Part shown: positions 6,289-12,236 of the stretch, in pieces
Layout: each line of letters starts with the position of its first letter
Numbering within the stretch: the first letter of the stretch is position 1
NCBI GenBank assembly: GCA_029945665.1
Contig: JAQSCZ010000020.1
Span: 1 to 46,023, forward strand
Direction: 5' to 3'
Length of the DNA: 46,023 bases
Source: a bacterium
GTDB taxonomy: Bacteria > Bacteroidota > Bacteroidia > NS11-12g > UBA955
Position numbers and translations under genes: made by a program
The notes under the pieces: model-generated
Database searches by the model: none
The model's input: the letters and a program-made list of their open reading frames with translations, nothing else
What the model was told of the DNA's origin: nothing

Positions 6289-8118
6289 ATGAAAGCAATG
6301 AAGCGCATACTTATTTTAATTTTGCCCTATAAAGGCTTGGCTGCGCTCAACATGCTGTTTAATTTAATTCAAATTTTAGCAGGTTTATTTTCGCTTGGCC
6401 TCATGATGCCATTGCTCGATTTTATGTTTAACAACAATAAAGAAGCATTAAAACCTAAAGCCATTGAAGCTGGTTCAAGTACTGATTTTACATCCATGTA
6501 CAACGCCTTTATTCAATGGATGACAGAGTATGTTCAGAATGATAAAAAACAAGCCTTGTTATTAATTTGTATTGCCTTAATCATTGCCACCATTATCAAA
6601 AATATTGCGCGTTACTTGGCATTGTATTACCTCGTCATTTTAAGAAACAGAAGCATTGAAAATATTCGCAAAAATATCTTTCAAAAAATATTAGCGCTAC
6701 CGCTTTCCTATTTTAGCAATGAAAAAAAAGGCGATTTAATTTCACGTATGAGCAACGATGTTAAAGAAGTTGAATGGAGCATGATGTCGTCGTTAGAGGC
6801 TATATTCAAAGAACCTGTAACCATTATATTTTACGTAGGAACGCTGGTATACATGAGTCCGGGTTTGACCTTATTTGTCATTGGATTATTACCAGTAGCG
6901 GCTGGTTCTATCGCCTTGTTAGGTAAGTCACTTCGCAGAAAATCGAAACGCAACCAAGAGCAACAAAGTAATGTGCTGTCCTTTTTAGAAGAGTCTCTTG
7001 GTGGCATGCGAATAATCAAAGCATTTGTTGGCGAAAAAGCATTTAGACATAAATTCAATTCCCTCAATTCAAGCTCAACCTTAGCCAATATAAAAGTGAA
7101 TCACCGCGGCGACTTGGCCTCTCCTATTTCCGAAACATTAGGGATTATGGTGGCTGGGGTTATCCTTTGGTTTGGAGGAAACATGGTATTCGAAGGTGAA
7201 TTGGTGGGCTCAGCTTTCTTGGCCTACTTCGCTATTTTTAGTCAAGTAATTCCTCCATTCAAACAGTTATCGCAAGCCTTTCCAATGGTACAACGCGGTG
7301 CCGCTAGTTTAGATCGGTATGAAGAAATTCTCAATGCAGACGAGAAAATTTATGAGCAATCTAACCCGATTGAAATTAAAGGCGTAAACCATGCTATTGA
7401 ATATAAAAATGTAAACTTTGCGTATGGATTAGACACCGTTTTACATGGCATTAGTTTTACAGTTCCTAAAAACAAAAAAGTAGCTTTAGTAGGTGCAAGT
7501 GGAAGCGGAAAAAGTACCATCGCTGATTTATTACCCCGTTTTTACGATATATCAAATGGCGAAATACTAATTGATGGTGTAGATATTAAATCACTTTCAA
7601 TTCATAGCCTAAGATCGATGATGGGCATTGTTTCGCAAGAGGCTATTTTATTTAACGATACCATTGCCTATAATATTATTTTCGGTTTAGAAAATGTCAG
7701 TAAAGATGATTTAGAAAAGGCAGCAAAATTAGCCAATGCTTATGATTTTATAATGCAATCTGAAAGGGGTTTTGATACAATTATAGGAGAAAGAGGAAGT
7801 AAATTGAGTGGTGGACAAAGACAGCGTATCGCCATAGCTCGCGCTTTATTGCGCAACCCTGCAGTTCTGATTTTAGATGAGGCTACGAGTGCCTTGGACA
7901 ATGAGAGTGAAAAATTGGTGCAACAGGCCCTCGATAATTTAAGACAAGATAGAACAACCCTGGTTATTGCGCATCGTTTAACTACTATTCAAGATGCAGA
8001 TGAAATTATTGTTTTAGATAAAGGTTTTATTATAGAGCGAGGAAATCACACTGAGTTAATGGAAAAACGTGGACCCTATTTTAAACTCTACAACACTTAC
8101 AACGATGATAAAGGCTAA
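6289..8118 (+). CDS. MsbA-like ABC exporter, fused membrane and ATPase domains
   Basis: A 609-residue half-transporter. The N-terminal ABC type-1 membrane domain (about 1-330) has six predicted helices. The nucleotide-binding domain follows: Walker A GASGSGKST at about 400-408, Q-loop in SQEAILF, signature LSGGQRQR at about 506-513, Walker B VLILDEATSALD at about 526-537, and the H-loop in VIAHRLTT. It should work as a homodimer exporting a lipid or other hydrophobic substrate; the MsbA/lipid A flippase group is the nearest match. The ABC type is certain, the substrate is not. It overlaps the RimB-like gene by 14 bases, so it heads a three-gene operon with the RimB and RimK genes. Confidence 0.93.
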   Translation: MKAMKRILILILPYKGLAALNMLFNLIQILAGLFSLGLMMPLLDFMFNNNKEALKPKAIEAGSSTDFTSMYNAFIQWMTEYVQNDKKQALLLICIALIIATIIKNIARYLALYYLVILRNRSIENIRKNIFQKILALPLSYFSNEKKGDLISRMSNDVKEVEWSMMSSLEAIFKEPVTIIFYVGTLVYMSPGLTLFVIGLLPVAAGSIALLGKSLRRKSKRNQEQQSNVLSFLEESLGGMRIIKAFVGEKAFRHKFNSLNSSSTLANIKVNHRGDLASPISETLGIMVAGVILWFGGNMVFEGELVGSAFLAYFAIFSQVIPPFKQLSQAFPMVQRGAASLDRYEEILNADEKIYEQSNPIEIKGVNHAIEYKNVNFAYGLDTVLHGISFTVPKNKKVALVGASGSGKSTIADLLPRFYDISNGEILIDGVDIKSLSIHSLRSMMGIVSQEAILFNDTIAYNIIFGLENVSKDDLEKAAKLANAYDFIMQSERGFDTIIGERGSKLSGGQRQRIAIARALLRNPAVLILDEATSALDNESEKLVQQALDNLRQDRTTLVIAHRLTTIQDADEIIVLDKGFIIERGNHTELMEKRGPYFKLYNTYNDDKG

Positions 8119-8563
8119 AAGCAAGAAAATATTAGGCAGTTCGGATAAAATTGATTTTCCTGAATTGGGTTTTGAAAACATCAGTTGTAAAATTGATACG
8201 GGTGCCGATACATCATCCATTCATTGCCACCATGTGAGGATAAGAGAAATTGATGGTGAAGAAGTTTTGGTTTTTCGATTACTGGATCCAAAACACAAAG
8301 CCTATGTAAAAAAAGATTGCACCACCAAACAATTCAAAGAGAAACGGATTAAAAATAGTTTTGGTGATAAGGAATATCGCTATTTTGTAATTTTAAAAAT
8401 AAAATTATTTAACCAAGAGATAGAAGCGGAGTTTTCATTGGCCAATAGGTCGGATATGACTTACCCGGTGCTATTGGGTAAAAAATTACTTTATCAACAA
8501 TACTTAGTAGATATTTCTCAAAAAAATCTTTCTTATTCAGCAAAGAAAAATCACAGGCCATGA
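8105..8563 (+). CDS. RimB-like retropepsin-type protease (zinc protease family PF05618)
   Basis: A 152-residue protein with [12 protein letters not shown] at about 29-40, the DTGA(D/N)TS active-site motif of small retropepsin-like proteins once labelled ATP-dependent zinc proteases, and a conserved [12 protein letters not shown] block near the end. In Pseudomonas the family member RimB acts with RimK, which adds glutamates to ribosomal protein S6. Here it is followed directly by rimK with an ATGA overlap, supporting the same partnership. The ATG at 8105 was chosen because it gives the family's usual length and overlaps the ABC gene modestly; an earlier in-frame start at 8069 would add 12 unlikely residues. 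Confidence 0.85.
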
Positions 8564-9444
8564 ACATCGTCGTATTATCACGAAACGCTCGCCTTTACTC
8601 AACCAAACGTTTGATTGAAGCAGCAGAGGCAAGAGGACACAATGCCCAAATCATCAGTCATACCCATTGTTATGTGGTGATTGAAAAGGGTGCTCCTACT
8701 ATCTTTCACAACAACCAATCGCTTACCGATATAGATGCAGTAATTCCTCGAATCGGGGCCTCTGTTACCTATTACGGCTCGGCCATTATCCGACAATTCG
8801 AAGCACAAAAAATATATACATCACTAACCGCTGCGGCACTTGTTCGTAGCCGCGACAAATTAAGAACCTTGCAGTTATTGAGCATGGAAAATATTGCACT
8901 TCCTAAAACCGTGTTTGCCCGCCATCCCGACGATATTGATCATGTCATAAAACAAGTTGGAGGAGCGCCGTTGATTATTAAATTAATTGAAGGGACCCAA
9001 GGTTTAGGTGTTGTGTTAGCTGAAACTAAAAAGGCCGCTAAAAGTGTGATAGAAGCTTTCTATGGCATGAATGCTAACTTTTTGGTACAAGAGTTTGTTA
9101 AAGAAGCAAAAGGCAGTGATATAAGAGCTTTTGTGGTTGGCGATAAAGTGGTAGGTGCCATGGTTCGTCAAGGCAAAGAAGATGAATTCAGAAGCAACTT
9201 GCACAGAGGTGGCACAAGTAAGGTGGTAAAACTTTCGGCGGATGAAGAAGAAGTTGCCATAAGAGCATCTAGAGCGCTAGGACTAAACATTGCTGGTGTC
9301 GATATGTTGCCTAGTGAAAGGGGTATGTTGGTGATTGAAGTAAATTCCTCTCCAGGTTTGGAAGGCATAGAAGCAGCAACAGGAAAAGACATTGCCGGAG
9401 AAATCATTCACTTTATTGAAAAAGATAAGAAAAGCCGTTCCTAA
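8560..9444 (+). CDS. rimK: RimK-type ATP-grasp glutamate ligase
   Basis: A 294-residue ATP-grasp ligase. The N-terminal pre-ATP-grasp domain is followed by [31 protein letters not shown] (ATP-binding loop) and the metal-binding segment [14 protein letters not shown] near the C-terminus. The length and these motifs match RimK, which adds glutamate residues to the C-terminus of ribosomal protein S6 and can make poly-alpha-glutamate. It is the last gene of the ABC-RimB-RimK operon, its ATG overlapping the previous stop by 4 bases. The 118 bases after it show no clear terminator. Confidence 0.93.
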
Positions 9445-9562
9445 TTCATACGCCTATTGAAAGGCCATTAATCTTCATTTTATTAAAAAGGAAGACTTGC
9501 TATTTTATAAAAATAAAAATATTTTAAAGTAAAAATCCATTTCATTCGTCTTCCCTTTCGAA

Positions 9563-10135
9563 ATGGTTACCAATTCATATAATGCAATGGCGGTGAACAA
9601 TGAAACTATCATACAGACGGTAAATCGCTATAGCAAGCAATTACTTGGCTTCATTAAGGGCAAAGTAAAATCTGATGAAGATGCACAAGATGTTTTACAA
9701 GATGTTTGGTATCAATTGAGCAATTTAACCGAGATAGAAACCATAGAAAGTATGAGTGGTTGGTTATACCGTGTCGCCCGAAATAAAATCACCGATTTAT
9801 TCCGTAAAAATCGAACCGATTCACTTTCTGACTTTACACTTCATAGCGAAGATGGTGAAATCGATTTTAAAGATCTTTTATTGTCAGAAAATAAAACACC
9901 AGAAGATGAATTTATGAAAAAACTTTTTTGGGAAGAGTTAATGCTAGCTTTAGATGAATTGCCCGAAAAACAGAGAGAGGCCTTTGTGTTAAATGAAATT
10001 GAAGACATGAGTTTGCAAGCCATAGCCGATTTAAAAAACGAAAACATAAAAACCATTATTTCTCGCAAAGGGTATGCAACCAAATTTTTGAGAGAACGTT
10101 TAAATAATTTATACCAAGATTTTCAAAACTATTAA
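9563..10135 (+). CDS. RNA polymerase sigma factor, ECF type
   Basis: A 190-residue sigma-70 family factor. Region 2 is visible as DEDAQDVLQDVWYQL and GWLYRVARNKITDLFRKNR; region 4 as LDELPEKQREAFVLNEIEDMSLQAIADL. The helix-turn-helix is less canonical (NENIKTIISRKGYATKFLRERL). Start at ATG 9563; an ATG at 9587 would also keep all domains. It lies 10 bases upstream of a small membrane protein gene, so the factor probably controls its own envelope operon (9563-11045). No classical anti-sigma factor is seen, so one of the small membrane proteins may play that part; this is inference. An imperfect inverted repeat (AAAGGAAGAC near 9487, GTCTTCCCTTT near 9550) lies upstream and could be an operator. 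Confidence 0.9.
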   Translation: MVTNSYNAMAVNNETIIQTVNRYSKQLLGFIKGKVKSDEDAQDVLQDVWYQLSNLTEIETIESMSGWLYRVARNKITDLFRKNRTDSLSDFTLHSEDGEIDFKDLLLSENKTPEDEFMKKLFWEELMLALDELPEKQREAFVLNEIEDMSLQAIADLKNENIKTIISRKGYATKFLRERLNNLYQDFQNY

Positions 10136-10145
10136 TATTACAACC

Positions 10146-10469
10146 ATGAAATTTTCAAAAACAAGTAAATTCATATTTCTTCCAATTATAGGCGCTGGCC
10201 TTATTGCTTTGCTGAGCTATGTGGTCATGTATTTGTGGAACGCCATTTTACCTGAGGCCTTGACGATTGCAAAACCCATTACTTTTTGGCAAGCAACCGG
10301 CTTATTAGTGCTTTGTAAAATACTTTTTGGAGGATTTAAAGGCGGGCCGAACAAGTTCAAAAATGGCTACAATAAACGCATGGAATGGAAAGAAAAAATG
10401 AACAATATGAGTGACGAAGAGCGAGCGCAATTCCGTGCGCAATGGCGACAGCGTTGTGGAAGAAATTAA
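10146..10469 (+). CDS. Small two-helix membrane protein with C-terminal MS-RCG motif
   Basis: A 107-residue protein with two hydrophobic segments (about 10-30 and 47-62) and a charged tail. Residues 81-105 (WKEKMNNMSDEERAQF... to RCG) align without gaps to residues 55-79 of the product of 10595: both have KxxN-M-S-acidic x3-R-x2-F-x6-RCG. The tail resembles the helical MSxEER segments of periplasmic Spy/CpxP-like or metal-sensor proteins, but I cannot assign a family. It follows the sigma factor by 10 bases, so it may be an anti-sigma or stress-response component; a hairpin terminator follows. Confidence 0.75.
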   Translation: MKFSKTSKFIFLPIIGAGLIALLSYVVMYLWNAILPEALTIAKPITFWQATGLLVLCKILFGGFKGGPNKFKNGYNKRMEWKEKMNNMSDEERAQFRAQWRQRCGRN

Positions 10470-10486
10470 TACATAAAATGACGATT

Positions 10487-10518
10487 AAAAAGGAAATCAC
10501 TCAAGGTTTCCTTTTTTT
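10487..10518 (+). terminator. Rho-independent terminator after the sigma factor pair
   Basis: Arms AAAAAGGAAA (10487-10496) and TTTCCTTTTT (10507-10516) with a 10-base loop, followed by more T. It splits the cluster into two transcripts or attenuates read-through into 10595. Confidence 0.75.
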
Positions 10519-10594
10519 ATTTTCAATAATTTAAAGTAATTTTTTAAGTTGTGCGTCTACTCTTATAATATCAATAATTAAAATAAATTCAATC

Positions 10595-10876
10595 ATGAAA
10601 CAATTTTTTAAAACCGTATTGGCCGGATTTCTAGCAGGCGTTGCCTTGTTTATTTTGCCATTTTTCCTAGTTCGTGTATTTGTATTCTTCTTGCTAGTAG
10701 GCGCCATTTTTAAGCTCATGGGAGGCCGCAGACGAGGTATGCACTACCGTTATGCATTTGCACAAAAATTCCGCAATATGAGTGAGGATGACCGCAACGC
10801 ATTTATGCAAAAACATGGCAACAGATGCGGTTATTACAATGAACAAGTAAACAACAACAACGAAAACAATCAATAA
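10595..10876 (+). CDS. Small membrane protein with the same C-terminal MS-RCG motif
   Basis: A 93-residue protein: a very hydrophobic hairpin or pair of helices at 5-42, a GGRRRG turn, the 25-residue motif at 55-79 (FAQKFRNMSEDDRNAF... to RCG) shared with the product of 10146, and an Asn-rich tail. The hydrophobic parts of the two proteins are not clearly alike, so the motif is the conserved unit. It lies 7 bases before a third small gene. Function unknown; a role in a sigma-controlled envelope or metal response is a guess from context. Confidence 0.75.
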   Translation: MKQFFKTVLAGFLAGVALFILPFFLVRVFVFFLLVGAIFKLMGGRRRGMHYRYAFAQKFRNMSEDDRNAFMQKHGNRCGYYNEQVNNNNENNQ

Positions 10877-10883
10877 TTAAACA

Positions 10884-11045
10884 ATGAAAAAAGGAATTAA
10901 AATAGCCGTATTTGCAACCGTTATGTTATTAACCGTTGCAGGATTCAAAGCCATTAAAATGCACCGGATGGGTTATCAGAATGGGGGTGCTTGCCATTCT
11001 CAAAACATGCAACAACATGGCGCAGGTTGCCATAAATTTCAATAG
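10884..11045 (+). CDS. 53-residue exported Cys/His-rich peptide
   Basis: An ATG 7 bases after the previous stop opens a 53-codon frame. The N-terminus has Lys residues and a hydrophobic segment (IAVFATVMLLTVAGF), a signal peptide or anchor; the remainder carries ACHSQ and GAGCHKF, two Cys-His pairs 11 residues apart with further His and Met (HRMG, NMQQHG). Such a composition suggests binding of a metal such as copper or zinc, but this is inference. Position and spacing argue it is a real gene co-transcribed with 10595. A short hairpin (TAGCAA/TTGCTA) directly follows the frame. Confidence 0.65.
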   Translation: MKKGIKIAVFATVMLLTVAGFKAIKMHRMGYQNGGACHSQNMQQHGAGCHKFQ

Positions 11046-11077
11046 CAAGCTTTGCTATAAAAAACCTTGACGGAATT

Positions 11078-11141
11078 AAAGTCCTTACTTAGAAGAAGTA
11101 TTAAGATGGTCGCACAATCTTAAAACCGAAGTAAGGACTTT
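11078..11141. repeat. Perfect 13-bp inverted repeat spanning the 3' end of the oxidoreductase gene
   Basis: AAAGTCCTTACTT at 11078-11090 and its exact complement AAGTAAGGACTTT at 11129-11141 are separated by 38 bases. The right arm is coding (residues near the C-terminus of the minus-strand gene ending at 11101); the left arm lies beyond its stop. In the mRNA this would close a stem-loop around the stop codon. No T run follows, so it is not a standard terminator. Confidence 0.7.
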
Positions 11142-11760
11142 TAAATGCACCATATAGGCGCAACCAAACTGGCAGCATCATTTCTGTGCCGCGGGCCGAG
11201 CTGATATCGCCTAAATCTATAATATCAGTCCAGCCAAACTGATTCAGAATGGTCATCGTTTGTGCTTTGGCTTCCGCATTATTACCACTTACAAACATGG
11301 TAATATCACCGCCACTTTTACCGGCATTCACCATTACATCGGCGGTCACTATGTTTAAAGATTTTACCACATGTGCTTCTGGCAATAATTGTTGTATCGT
11401 TTCACCCAATGAATTGGTATTGCAATAATCTGGATTCAATGTTGGTGGCATGCCTTTTGAAAAATCCAACGCATTGCTAATATCAATGATGGTTTTATCC
11501 TTAAAGTTTTCAATGCCTGCAAGCTTAAATACCTCCAAAGTTATTTCACCCTTGGTACAATTAAATACCAGCTCACCGAAAGCAGCAGCATCTGCAAAGG
11601 TGCCTGTGCGAGCACTGCTGCCATTTTCTGTTACCCAAGTCAAAGCTTTTTCATTGTTGTTGGTTCTGCTGCCCATCATTACTTGATAGCCGAGTTGAAT
11701 TAATTTGGTGGCGATGGCTTTTCCAACCATGCCGGTTCCCAATACACTTATTTTTTTCAT
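11101..11760 (-). CDS. NADPH-dependent F420 reductase-like NAD(P)-binding oxidoreductase
   Basis: A 219-residue Rossmann-fold protein beginning MKKISVLGTGMVGKAIATKL (GxGxxG with spacing typical of the F420-dependent NADP oxidoreductase family, PF03807) and SRTNNN, where Arg and Ser suggest NADP preference. Bacterial members without F420 are common and of unknown substrate; many are regulated by redox or xenobiotic stress. It is divergent from the HxlR regulator at 11847, with overlapping control region, so that regulator probably controls it. Confidence 0.87.
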   Translation of the reverse strand: MKKISVLGTGMVGKAIATKLIQLGYQVMMGSRTNNNEKALTWVTENGSSARTGTFADAAAFGELVFNCTKGEITLEVFKLAGIENFKDKTIIDISNALDFSKGMPPTLNPDYCNTNSLGETIQQLLPEAHVVKSLNIVTADVMVNAGKSGGDITMFVSGNNAEAKAQTMTILNQFGWTDIIDLGDISSARGTEMMLPVWLRLYGAFKSPYFGFKIVRPS

Positions 11761-11779
11761 ACTGTAATTATTATAGTAG

Positions 11780-11787
11780 CAAAACTA
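11780..11787 (-). promoter_or_regulatory. -7 element of the oxidoreductase gene
   Basis: TAGTTTTG on the minus strand fits TAnnTTTG exactly, with a TTG 20 bases upstream inside the divergent HxlR promoter. Transcription would start near 11773, about 13 bases before the ATG. Confidence 0.55.
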
Positions 11788-11799
11788 AGTATAGTTATT

Positions 11800-11829
11800 T
11801 ATCTTTGCAATACCTGTCAAAATTGACAG
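11800..11829 (+). promoter_or_regulatory. HxlR gene -7 element with dyad operator at the start site
   Basis: TATCTTTG at 11800-11807 fits the -7 consensus. Just downstream, at the expected transcription start, is the dyad CTGTCAA-AA-TTGACAG (11814-11829). A direct repeat TAAGTATA also occurs on both sides (11786-11793 and about 11829-11837). The dyad is the likely binding site of the HxlR dimer, which would repress its own gene and affect the divergent oxidoreductase gene. Confidence 0.6.
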
Positions 11830-11846
11830 TAAGTATACTATAGATT

Positions 11847-12236
11847 ATGATTATAAAAGGAGAAGAATTTGTCTATCATATTAAAGGTGAAACCTTTCAC
11901 TGTGCGATGGATGTTACCATGCATTTTCTTGGGGGCAAATGGAAAACAATAGTGCTTTGGTACCTGCGCAATAAAACTTTGCGGTTTGGTGAACTCAAAA
12001 AACAAATTCCAGACATGACTGAAAAAATGTTGAGTATACAACTCAAGAAAATGGAAGCCGATGGCTTAATAAAACGCGAAGTATTTGTTGAAGTACCCCT
12101 CAGAGTTGAGTATTCCTTAACTGATTTTGGAAAAAGTTTAACGCCTATATTGGAAGCCATTTCAAAATGGGGTAGACATTATGGCGAAACGGAAGGTCAG
12201 CTGAAGGCTGTAGTAAAAAAGAAAAAGGTACTGTAA
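11847..12236 (+). CDS. HxlR-family winged-helix transcriptional regulator
   Basis: A 129-residue MarR-like regulator with the HxlR core: HFLGGKWKTIVLWYL, LRFGELKKQIPDMTEKMLS and the wing EVPLRVEYSLTDFGKSL. Cys19, just ahead of the core, is where redox- and quinone-sensing members often carry their sensor cysteine. It is divergent from an NAD(P) oxidoreductase with an inverted repeat between them, the usual arrangement for local control in response to electrophiles or oxidants. Confidence 0.93.
   Translation: MIIKGEEFVYHIKGETFHCAMDVTMHFLGGKWKTIVLWYLRNKTLRFGELKKQIPDMTEKMLSIQLKKMEADGLIKREVFVEVPLRVEYSLTDFGKSLTPILEAISKWGRHYGETEGQLKAVVKKKKVL

Follow-up and report, generated by a model that had tools for sequence, protein, structure and literature searches.

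The window, by which we mean the whole stretch of 46,023 nucleotides that was analyzed, carries four small genes in a row on its forward strand. The first (positions 9563 to 10135) encodes a sigma factor of 190 amino acids and is followed by genes for proteins of 107, 93, and 53 amino acids, here called p107 (10146 to 10469), p93 (10595 to 10876), and p53 (10884 to 11045). All four open reading frames were found where a preliminary description, made from the sequence alone, had placed them, and its assignment of the first gene to the ECF-type factors was borne out by matches to Sigma70_r2 (1.3e-10, residues 20 to 84) and Sigma70_r4_2 (3.5e-9, residues 124 to 165) in Pfam and to the superfamily sigma70-ECF (5.6e-21) in NCBIfam; no unrelated Pfam family scored above its cut-off. 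Consisting of regions sigma2 and sigma4 only, in about 190 residues, the protein is an ECF (group IV) factor, and ECF sigma factors were also the best fold matches (Foldseek) of a model of sigma and p107 joined by read-through. A profile of the sigma factor gave 75 matches of at least 171 bits in our sample of the window's class, the next one scoring 117 bits, so that these form a separate orthologue set. As start of translation, the ATG at 9587 is more likely than position 9563, since relatives align to the protein from residue 11 or 12 onward and since the putative -10 element (CGTC, 9547 to 9550) ends just 12 nt before 9563.

The membrane or signal segments that had been attributed to the three small proteins were read by eye, those of p107 being backed in addition by charge pattern and covariation. 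p93 appears to combine a hydrophobic hairpin with a C-terminal tail that it shares with p107, and p53 an N-terminal membrane or signal segment with a short tail in which the two Cys-His pairs noted earlier are indeed present.

The genes appear to form two transcription units rather than one, with a terminator-like hairpin (10487 to 10516; a 12-pair stem plus a T-run) and a second copy of an ECF-type promoter motif standing between p107 and p93. The first copy, TTTAAAGTAA-N14-CGTCTTC (9523 to 9553), lies before the sigma gene, and the second, TTTAAAGTAA-N14-CGTCTAC (10530 to 10560), before p93; both are zero-mismatch matches on the forward strand. The hairpin folds at -14 kcal/mol (z -4.9); a terminator scan of 9400 to 11150, which found 1 terminator versus a mean of 1.3 in shuffles, is thus no evidence by itself. 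No RNA element of Rfam was matched between 8000 and 13000.

On the 5' side of the sigma unit (8069 to 9444) lies a gene for a putative ATP-dependent zinc protease (PF05618), followed, with an overlap of 4 bases, by a RimK-type ATP-grasp gene; a RimK gene is found upstream in one related locus (L003) too. On the 3' side (11101 to 12236), an F420/NADP reductase-like gene on the reverse strand and an HxlR regulator gene on the forward strand are mutually divergent, and another locus (L008) has both of these as well.

The p107 family and its pairing with the sigma factor

Neither p107 nor p53 matched any Pfam or NCBIfam family at E values of up to 1, and all matches of p93 stayed below the cut-offs. 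The earlier view of the locus as a small module lacking a standard anti-sigma factor held up, in that no known anti-sigma family was matched by the proteins of the module or by 75 members of the p107 family, the latter being judged on 25 of the 37 Pfam families and on the 16 NCBIfam families that they matched. The p107 of the window has neither a recognizable class I anti-sigma domain nor the Hx3Cx2C signature of that class, and it contains no histidine at all. Compared by sequence with solved structures, it gave five matches at E values of 0.64 to 0.99, none of them an anti-sigma factor.

By its sequence, p107 belongs to an unnamed family marked by an invariant W-N in helix 1 and by M-S/T-x-E-E-R/K-x2-F in the tail. 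A profile built from three members matched in 75 of the 296 genomes sampled from the window's class, or in 72 when three weak matches (G131, G296, and G290; E values of 0.002 to 0.007), which have no sigma gene beside them, were excluded from the counts. At E values of up to 1e-10, p107 was found in 66 of the 151 genomes of a second bacterial family and in 63 of the 147 of a third, and two smaller families had it in 7 of 7 and 14 of 26 genomes. A scan of named genomes returned at least 562 relatives, and the best 80 of these, hereafter the named loci, include Mucilaginibacter, Pedobacter, Chryseobacterium, Niastella, Dyadobacter, Runella, Spirosoma, and Saprospiraceae. One p107 record was labeled Thermoanaerobaculia, perhaps through a binning error.

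Among these best 80 of at least 562 loci, a sigma gene lies directly upstream of p107 in 78 and also in L123, while L098 starts at a contig end. Altogether, 303 p107-like open reading frames were fetched, some places having been fetched twice. In 294 cases the gene directly follows a sigma gene, and in four (L069, L074, L259, and L289) it directly precedes one; the other five are two genes at contig ends (L041 and L098), two extra tandem copies (L090), and one orphan (L279), with a helicase gene upstream and no sigma gene in the 2.5 kb fetched. The preliminary description had named motif matches scattered without sigma factors as speaking against its proposal; the opposite was seen, the p107-like genes adjoining a sigma gene in 298 of the 303 cases. 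In L090 (3263 to 4318), a single sigma gene is followed by three consecutive p107-like genes, and the tails of the second and third are degenerate.

The two genes are also found, or missing, together. Within the window's family, the sigma orthologue and p107 occur in the same 4 of 70 genomes and neither occurs in the other 66, the next sigma matches being far weaker (4.6e-13); in one of the four (G016), the two genes are on different contigs. Across the class sample, 70 of the 75 strong sigma matches have p107 beside them, a figure made up of 68 that lie next to a listed p107, one pair split by contig ends (G074), and one with a diverged p107 (L331). The remaining five are close sigma homologues without adjacent p107: three (L332 to L334) are directly followed by an Hsp20-like gene and two (L335 and L336) by neither. 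Four of these five come from genomes with a further p107, which in one is diverged and in one lies beside a weaker sigma gene. As for L332 to L334, an ordinary sigma-p107 pair is present as well in two of the genomes, and the third has the pair with the diverged p107 (L331). Four p107 matches (G297, G313, G239, and G276) adjoin a weaker or partial sigma gene. In three of these (L059, L077, and L084), where the neighboring sigma factor is diverged, the p107 tail is of a different type (roughly KWxxYDxFWEExGxxAYxxY); judged by eye, this would perhaps fit a tail that changes along with its sigma factor, giving matched types.

The pair is found in Proteobacteria as well, among both the Gamma- and the Betaproteobacteria. 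Queries with the p107 of the window found homologues on 13 Pantoea plasmids, and a Pantoea p107 used as query added four further records, in Pseudomonas, Caballeronia, and Burkholderia; no phage record matched. Nine of these 17 records were read, and the sigma-p107 pair was present in six of the nine. Four of the six Pantoea records (L322, L323, L328, and L329) have p107 directly before the sigma gene, while two (L324 and L330; SS70 and X85) have p107 without a sigma gene beside it, only 128 nt separating p107 from the next gene in X85. Caballeronia SBC2 and Burkholderia arboris (L326 and L327) show the order sigma then p107, and Pseudomonas silvicola carries broken remnants of both genes. Since the Pantoea neighbors (MBL-fold, SDR, and MmgE/PrpD genes) are unlike the surroundings in Bacteroidota, it is the sigma-p107 pair that is constant. 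Being next to the sigma gene and co-inherited with it, p107 has the genetic context expected of an anti-sigma factor gene.

Topology of p107 and the tail shared with p93

Conservation, charge, and coupling were analyzed on 257 distinct sigma-p107 pairs, repeats having been merged. W31 and N32 of p107 are invariant, and L30, L56, and L60 (98%), G52 (94%), Q49 and F61 (93%), and G62 (92%) are strongly conserved, as are, within the tail, E91 (91%), M88 (86%), E92 (83%), and F96 (80%). On average, p107 has 3.8 K+R ahead of helix 1, only 0.4 within the loop, and 13.9 in the part beyond helix 2, the last together with 8.8 D+E; in all 257 members, the stretch that immediately follows helix 2 contains more K+R than the loop does. 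According to the positive-inside rule, positively charged ends of membrane proteins are cytosolic. This distribution thus places both ends of p107, including the positively charged tail, probably in the cytosol. The strongest coupled pair within the protein is S24-T51, and A21-T51 and L22-K58 are coupled as well, which fits an antiparallel hairpin. An AlphaFold model of p107 has helices at residues 7 to 38, 47 to 62, 72 to 86, and 90 to 104 (mean pLDDT, 73.3; pTM, 0.35). For the read-through chain of sigma and p107 from L170, in which a 53-residue linker joins the two, the model (pTM, 0.40) has tail helices at 315 to 323 and 326 to 340, with block means of 92 to 94 for the second.

The part of p107 that follows the hairpin (residues 78 to 106, encoded by 10377 to 10463) was delimited by conservation, structure prediction, and a match to the profile of the p93 tail. 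The motif K-x2-N-M-S-acidic3-R-x2-F-x6-R-C-G, which had been pointed out in both proteins, is exact in p107 (K84 to G105) and in p93; it is shared without gaps, as had been claimed, although over 22 residues rather than 25. The C-terminal halves of p107 and p93 gave an ungapped local score of 58, compared to a mean of 24.6 and a maximum of 44 in 2,000 shuffles, and when the two family alignments (75 rows for p107 and 20 for p93) were compared profile against profile, only the tails aligned, over 30 columns (probability, 96.8; E value, 3.1e-10). Shuffles and profile comparison together rule out a chance origin of the match. As the tails align while the membrane parts stay unaligned, the tail behaves as a module that would have been set on two different membrane anchors. 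Some relatives of p93 are without the motif, which is therefore not a constant of that family.

Coupling between sigma and p107 was less specific. Over the 257 pairs (effective number, 166), only two residue pairs scored higher than any of 12 shuffled pairings; one involves the tail and the other helix 1 (N144-F11), so that coupling does not single out the tail and did not locate an interface. In a smaller run of 148 pairs, N144-F11 came first and two tail pairs, R84-Q95 and L106-F96, second and third; the latter two were not near the top again in the 257-pair run, and N144-F11 is in the top two of both; we attach no weight to these rankings. Over the 148 pairs, sigma distances correlated equally with those of the p107 tail and of the membrane part (partial correlations of 0.47 and 0.48), which does not distinguish the two.

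Promoter motif and putative outputs

In the whole 3.79-Mb assembly, the pattern TTTAAAGTAA-N14-CGTCTNC has only two exact matches, those before sigma-p107 and before p93-p53. A short form, AAAGTAA-N14-CGTC, has four exact sites versus two for the control, and the two outside the locus are within reading frames; allowing up to two mismatches in the long pattern gave 5 sites versus 14 for its reversed control, which puts the three inexact ones within chance expectation. A wider regulon in this genome was rejected on these grounds. Elsewhere, 77 of the named loci include sufficient DNA upstream; the short form precedes the sigma gene in 29 of them, and TTAAA[GA]T-N12-17-CGTC, the loosest of the three promoter forms tried, in 56, where about 0.5 would be expected for the loosest form from the rest of the loci. 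A like site was found within 200 nt upstream of 24 of 29 p93 homologues, compared to 0 of 293 other same-strand open reading frames of at least 150 amino acids. Mucilaginibacter and Niastella seem, by eye, to have variant -35 elements. An ECF-type CGT -10 motif has been reported in Flavobacterium (PMC9723704), and the present sigma gene, too, appears to have the autoregulated promoter with a CGT-type -10 element that is usual for ECF factors. Because the motif stands before both sigma and p93, the most likely targets of sigma are its own unit and p93-p53, with perhaps no others in this genome, unless weaker sites are used.

Of the neighbors seen around the sigma gene, none is as constant as p107. 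Among the best 80 of the at least 562 loci, the most frequent same-strand clusters after p107 are the p93 family (29 loci), a protein some 71 residues long (23 loci), and Hsp20 (19 loci; PF00011, 1.7e-15 for the one member scanned), followed by p53-like His/Cys-rich proteins (9 loci) and a DnaJ-domain gene (8 loci). p53 follows p93 in the two close relatives, and both the p53 homologues and the N termini of the Hsp20 proteins are rich in His and Cys. The protein of about 71 residues (L140, 6327 to 6611, and 22 other loci) has a conserved stretch near FDLEDCDxILRI; when one member was scanned against Pfam, nothing scored above a cut-off. Lying downstream in only 29 of 80 loci and having its own promoter copy in 24 of 29, p93 looks like a sigma-controlled output. 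Own promoter sites are few in the other clusters (Hsp20, 1 of 19; p53-like, 0 of 9; 71-residue protein, 1 of 23; DnaJ, 0 of 8), and these genes would therefore depend on the preceding unit. Taken together, the putative outputs point to envelope or protein-folding stress.

p107 as a candidate brake on the sigma factor

In ECF systems, a constant neighboring membrane partner is usually the anti-sigma factor, and regulators that share a transcript with an ECF sigma factor are mostly antagonists. As p107 is the constant membrane neighbor here, we read it as a membrane-anchored anti-sigma factor of an unrecognized kind, acting as the brake on sigma, and we consider this reading fairly probable. Against it stand the coupling analysis, which gave no direct trace of binding, the five of 75 close sigma homologues that have no p107 beside them, and the failure of p107 to match a known anti-sigma family. 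It builds on what can be seen in the sequence, namely, the gene pairing, the co-inheritance, the two-helix topology suggested by charge and covariation, the shared tail, and the doubled promoter motif, whereas promoter function, binding, inhibition, release, the signal, and the roles of p93 and p53 are what we infer. At the inner membrane, p107 would keep the ECF sigma factor inactive: its two antiparallel membrane helices would leave both ends of p107 in the cytosol, and its C-terminal pair of short amphipathic helices would grip sigma. A signal from the membrane or envelope, perhaps involving the tail cysteine, would free sigma, which would then transcribe its own gene together with p107, as feedback, and the second unit, p93-p53. 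Carrying the same tail, p93 may bind sigma as an inducible second brake or act as an effector, and p53, like the Hsp20 chaperone in relatives, would be an effector in envelope or protein-folding stress. The preliminary description had proposed that one of the two motif proteins regulates the factor; p107 is the likely regulator, while p93 seemingly has the other role, that of an output. Only tentatively would we go further and see in p107 the founder of a new anti-sigma class, common in Bacteroidota and also found in Proteobacteria, in which a membrane hairpin carries a C-terminal cytosolic two-helix grip; the grip would be a movable module, present on the sigma-induced p93 as well, so that there would be a standing and an induced brake, and the regulon in this genome would amount to the circuit itself plus three tiny envelope proteins.

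Tight pairing and co-inheritance would fit equally well if p107 were a positive partner that recruits or stabilizes sigma at the membrane, or couples a sensor to it, and is needed for its activity, and the reverse gene order in four Bacteroidota loci and four Pantoea plasmids can be cited for such a role. However, p107 was retained without sigma in two of the six Pantoea plasmids and in L279, which would be the order of loss expected of an antagonist and is odd for a mere activator; this and the prevalence of antagonists among regulators cotranscribed with ECF factors make a positive partner quite improbable. p107 might also make no contact with sigma and be the most conserved effector of the regulon, much like p93, sigma being controlled by transcription or by some other protein. 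The tail common to p107 and the output-like p93, the existence of sigma homologues without p107 (three of them beside Hsp20), and the split of the two coupled sigma-p107 pairs between tail and helix 1 would all agree with this. Effectors vary, though, whereas p107 is by far the most constant neighbor and is kept even in Proteobacteria with different surroundings, and we thus find it unlikely that p107 is an effector of this kind.

The third alternative, which is the version put forward in the preliminary description, is a special case of the brake, in which the tail cysteine is the sensor, p107 being opened by thiol oxidation or metal and p53 and p93 being metal-binding outputs. Sensing by this cysteine is possible: some Cys follows F96 in 245 of 257 distinct p107 members. 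In 12 of the 257, however, there is none, and the aligned position is kept in only 200, so that the tail cysteine, though common, lacks the invariance of W31 and N32; moreover, one Cys by itself does not make a zinc anti-sigma site. The p107 tail motif M-S/T-x-E-E-R-x2-F presumably recalls the LTxxQ-type helix of the Metal_resist/Spy-CpxP-CnrX proteins (PF13801), and 17 of 75 p107 members gave weak matches to Metal_resist at E values of up to 0.1 (best, 5.9e-5), although the p107 of the window gave none at E values of up to 1. That superfamily is periplasmic, whereas the p107 tail is predicted by the charge rule to be cytosolic and would therefore be blind to periplasmic metal. A response to metal, suggested by these weak matches and by the His/Cys-rich p53 homologues and Hsp20 N termini, is a further possibility, but a brake that works through the tail cysteine seems doubtful to us.

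Viewed as a brake, p107 has both likenesses to and differences from known anti-sigma factors. Class I anti-sigma domains usually precede the membrane helix. The systems of that class (RseA, RsiW, ChrR, and RskA type) likewise have an ECF sigma gene beside a gene for a small membrane protein and an apparently autoregulated CGTC promoter, but the class I domain was not found in p107, in which some 45 predicted cytosolic residues follow two membrane helices at the C terminus. CnrY, of the class II pair CnrH-CnrY of Cupriavidus metallidurans, has its cytosolic part at the N terminus and is encoded together with CnrX, a separate sensor in the periplasm. The layout of p107 is thus reversed, no sequence match to CnrY was found in Pfam or among solved chains, and no CnrX-like sensor gene was seen at the sigma-p107 locus; two short helices, as in the cytosolic part of CnrY, are nevertheless predicted for the p107 tail. 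Class I anti-sigma domains average 101 residues, and the two helices of CnrY wrap round its sigma factor (PMC7406223). Dma1 of Bacteroides thetaiotaomicron, named in PMC12596196, is an unusual anti-sigma factor from the Bacteroidota; going by the title of its paper, it is dual membrane-spanning, unlike the 107-residue p107. Among the matches listed in the open-licence PMC literature, we recognized no paper describing the sigma-p107 pair.

A class I anti-sigma domain is reported nearby for 6% of Bacteroidetes ECF factors, compared to 32% over all phyla, and other anti-sigma classes in Bacteroidetes have been suggested as one possibility (PMC7406223). How most ECF factors of the Bacteroidota are controlled is thus an open question in print. 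An unnamed and tightly coupled sigma partner that matches strongly in 72 of the 296 genomes sampled from the window's class, p107 brings this question within reach of experiment through two small genes and a proposed promoter. With its doubled promoter and a regulon that is nearly empty, the locus would form a compact natural circuit, and the tail common to the proposed brake and the proposed output raises the idea of induced self-braking. If p107 is indeed the brake, it would help to explain ECF control in a phylum in which the known brakes are mostly missing.
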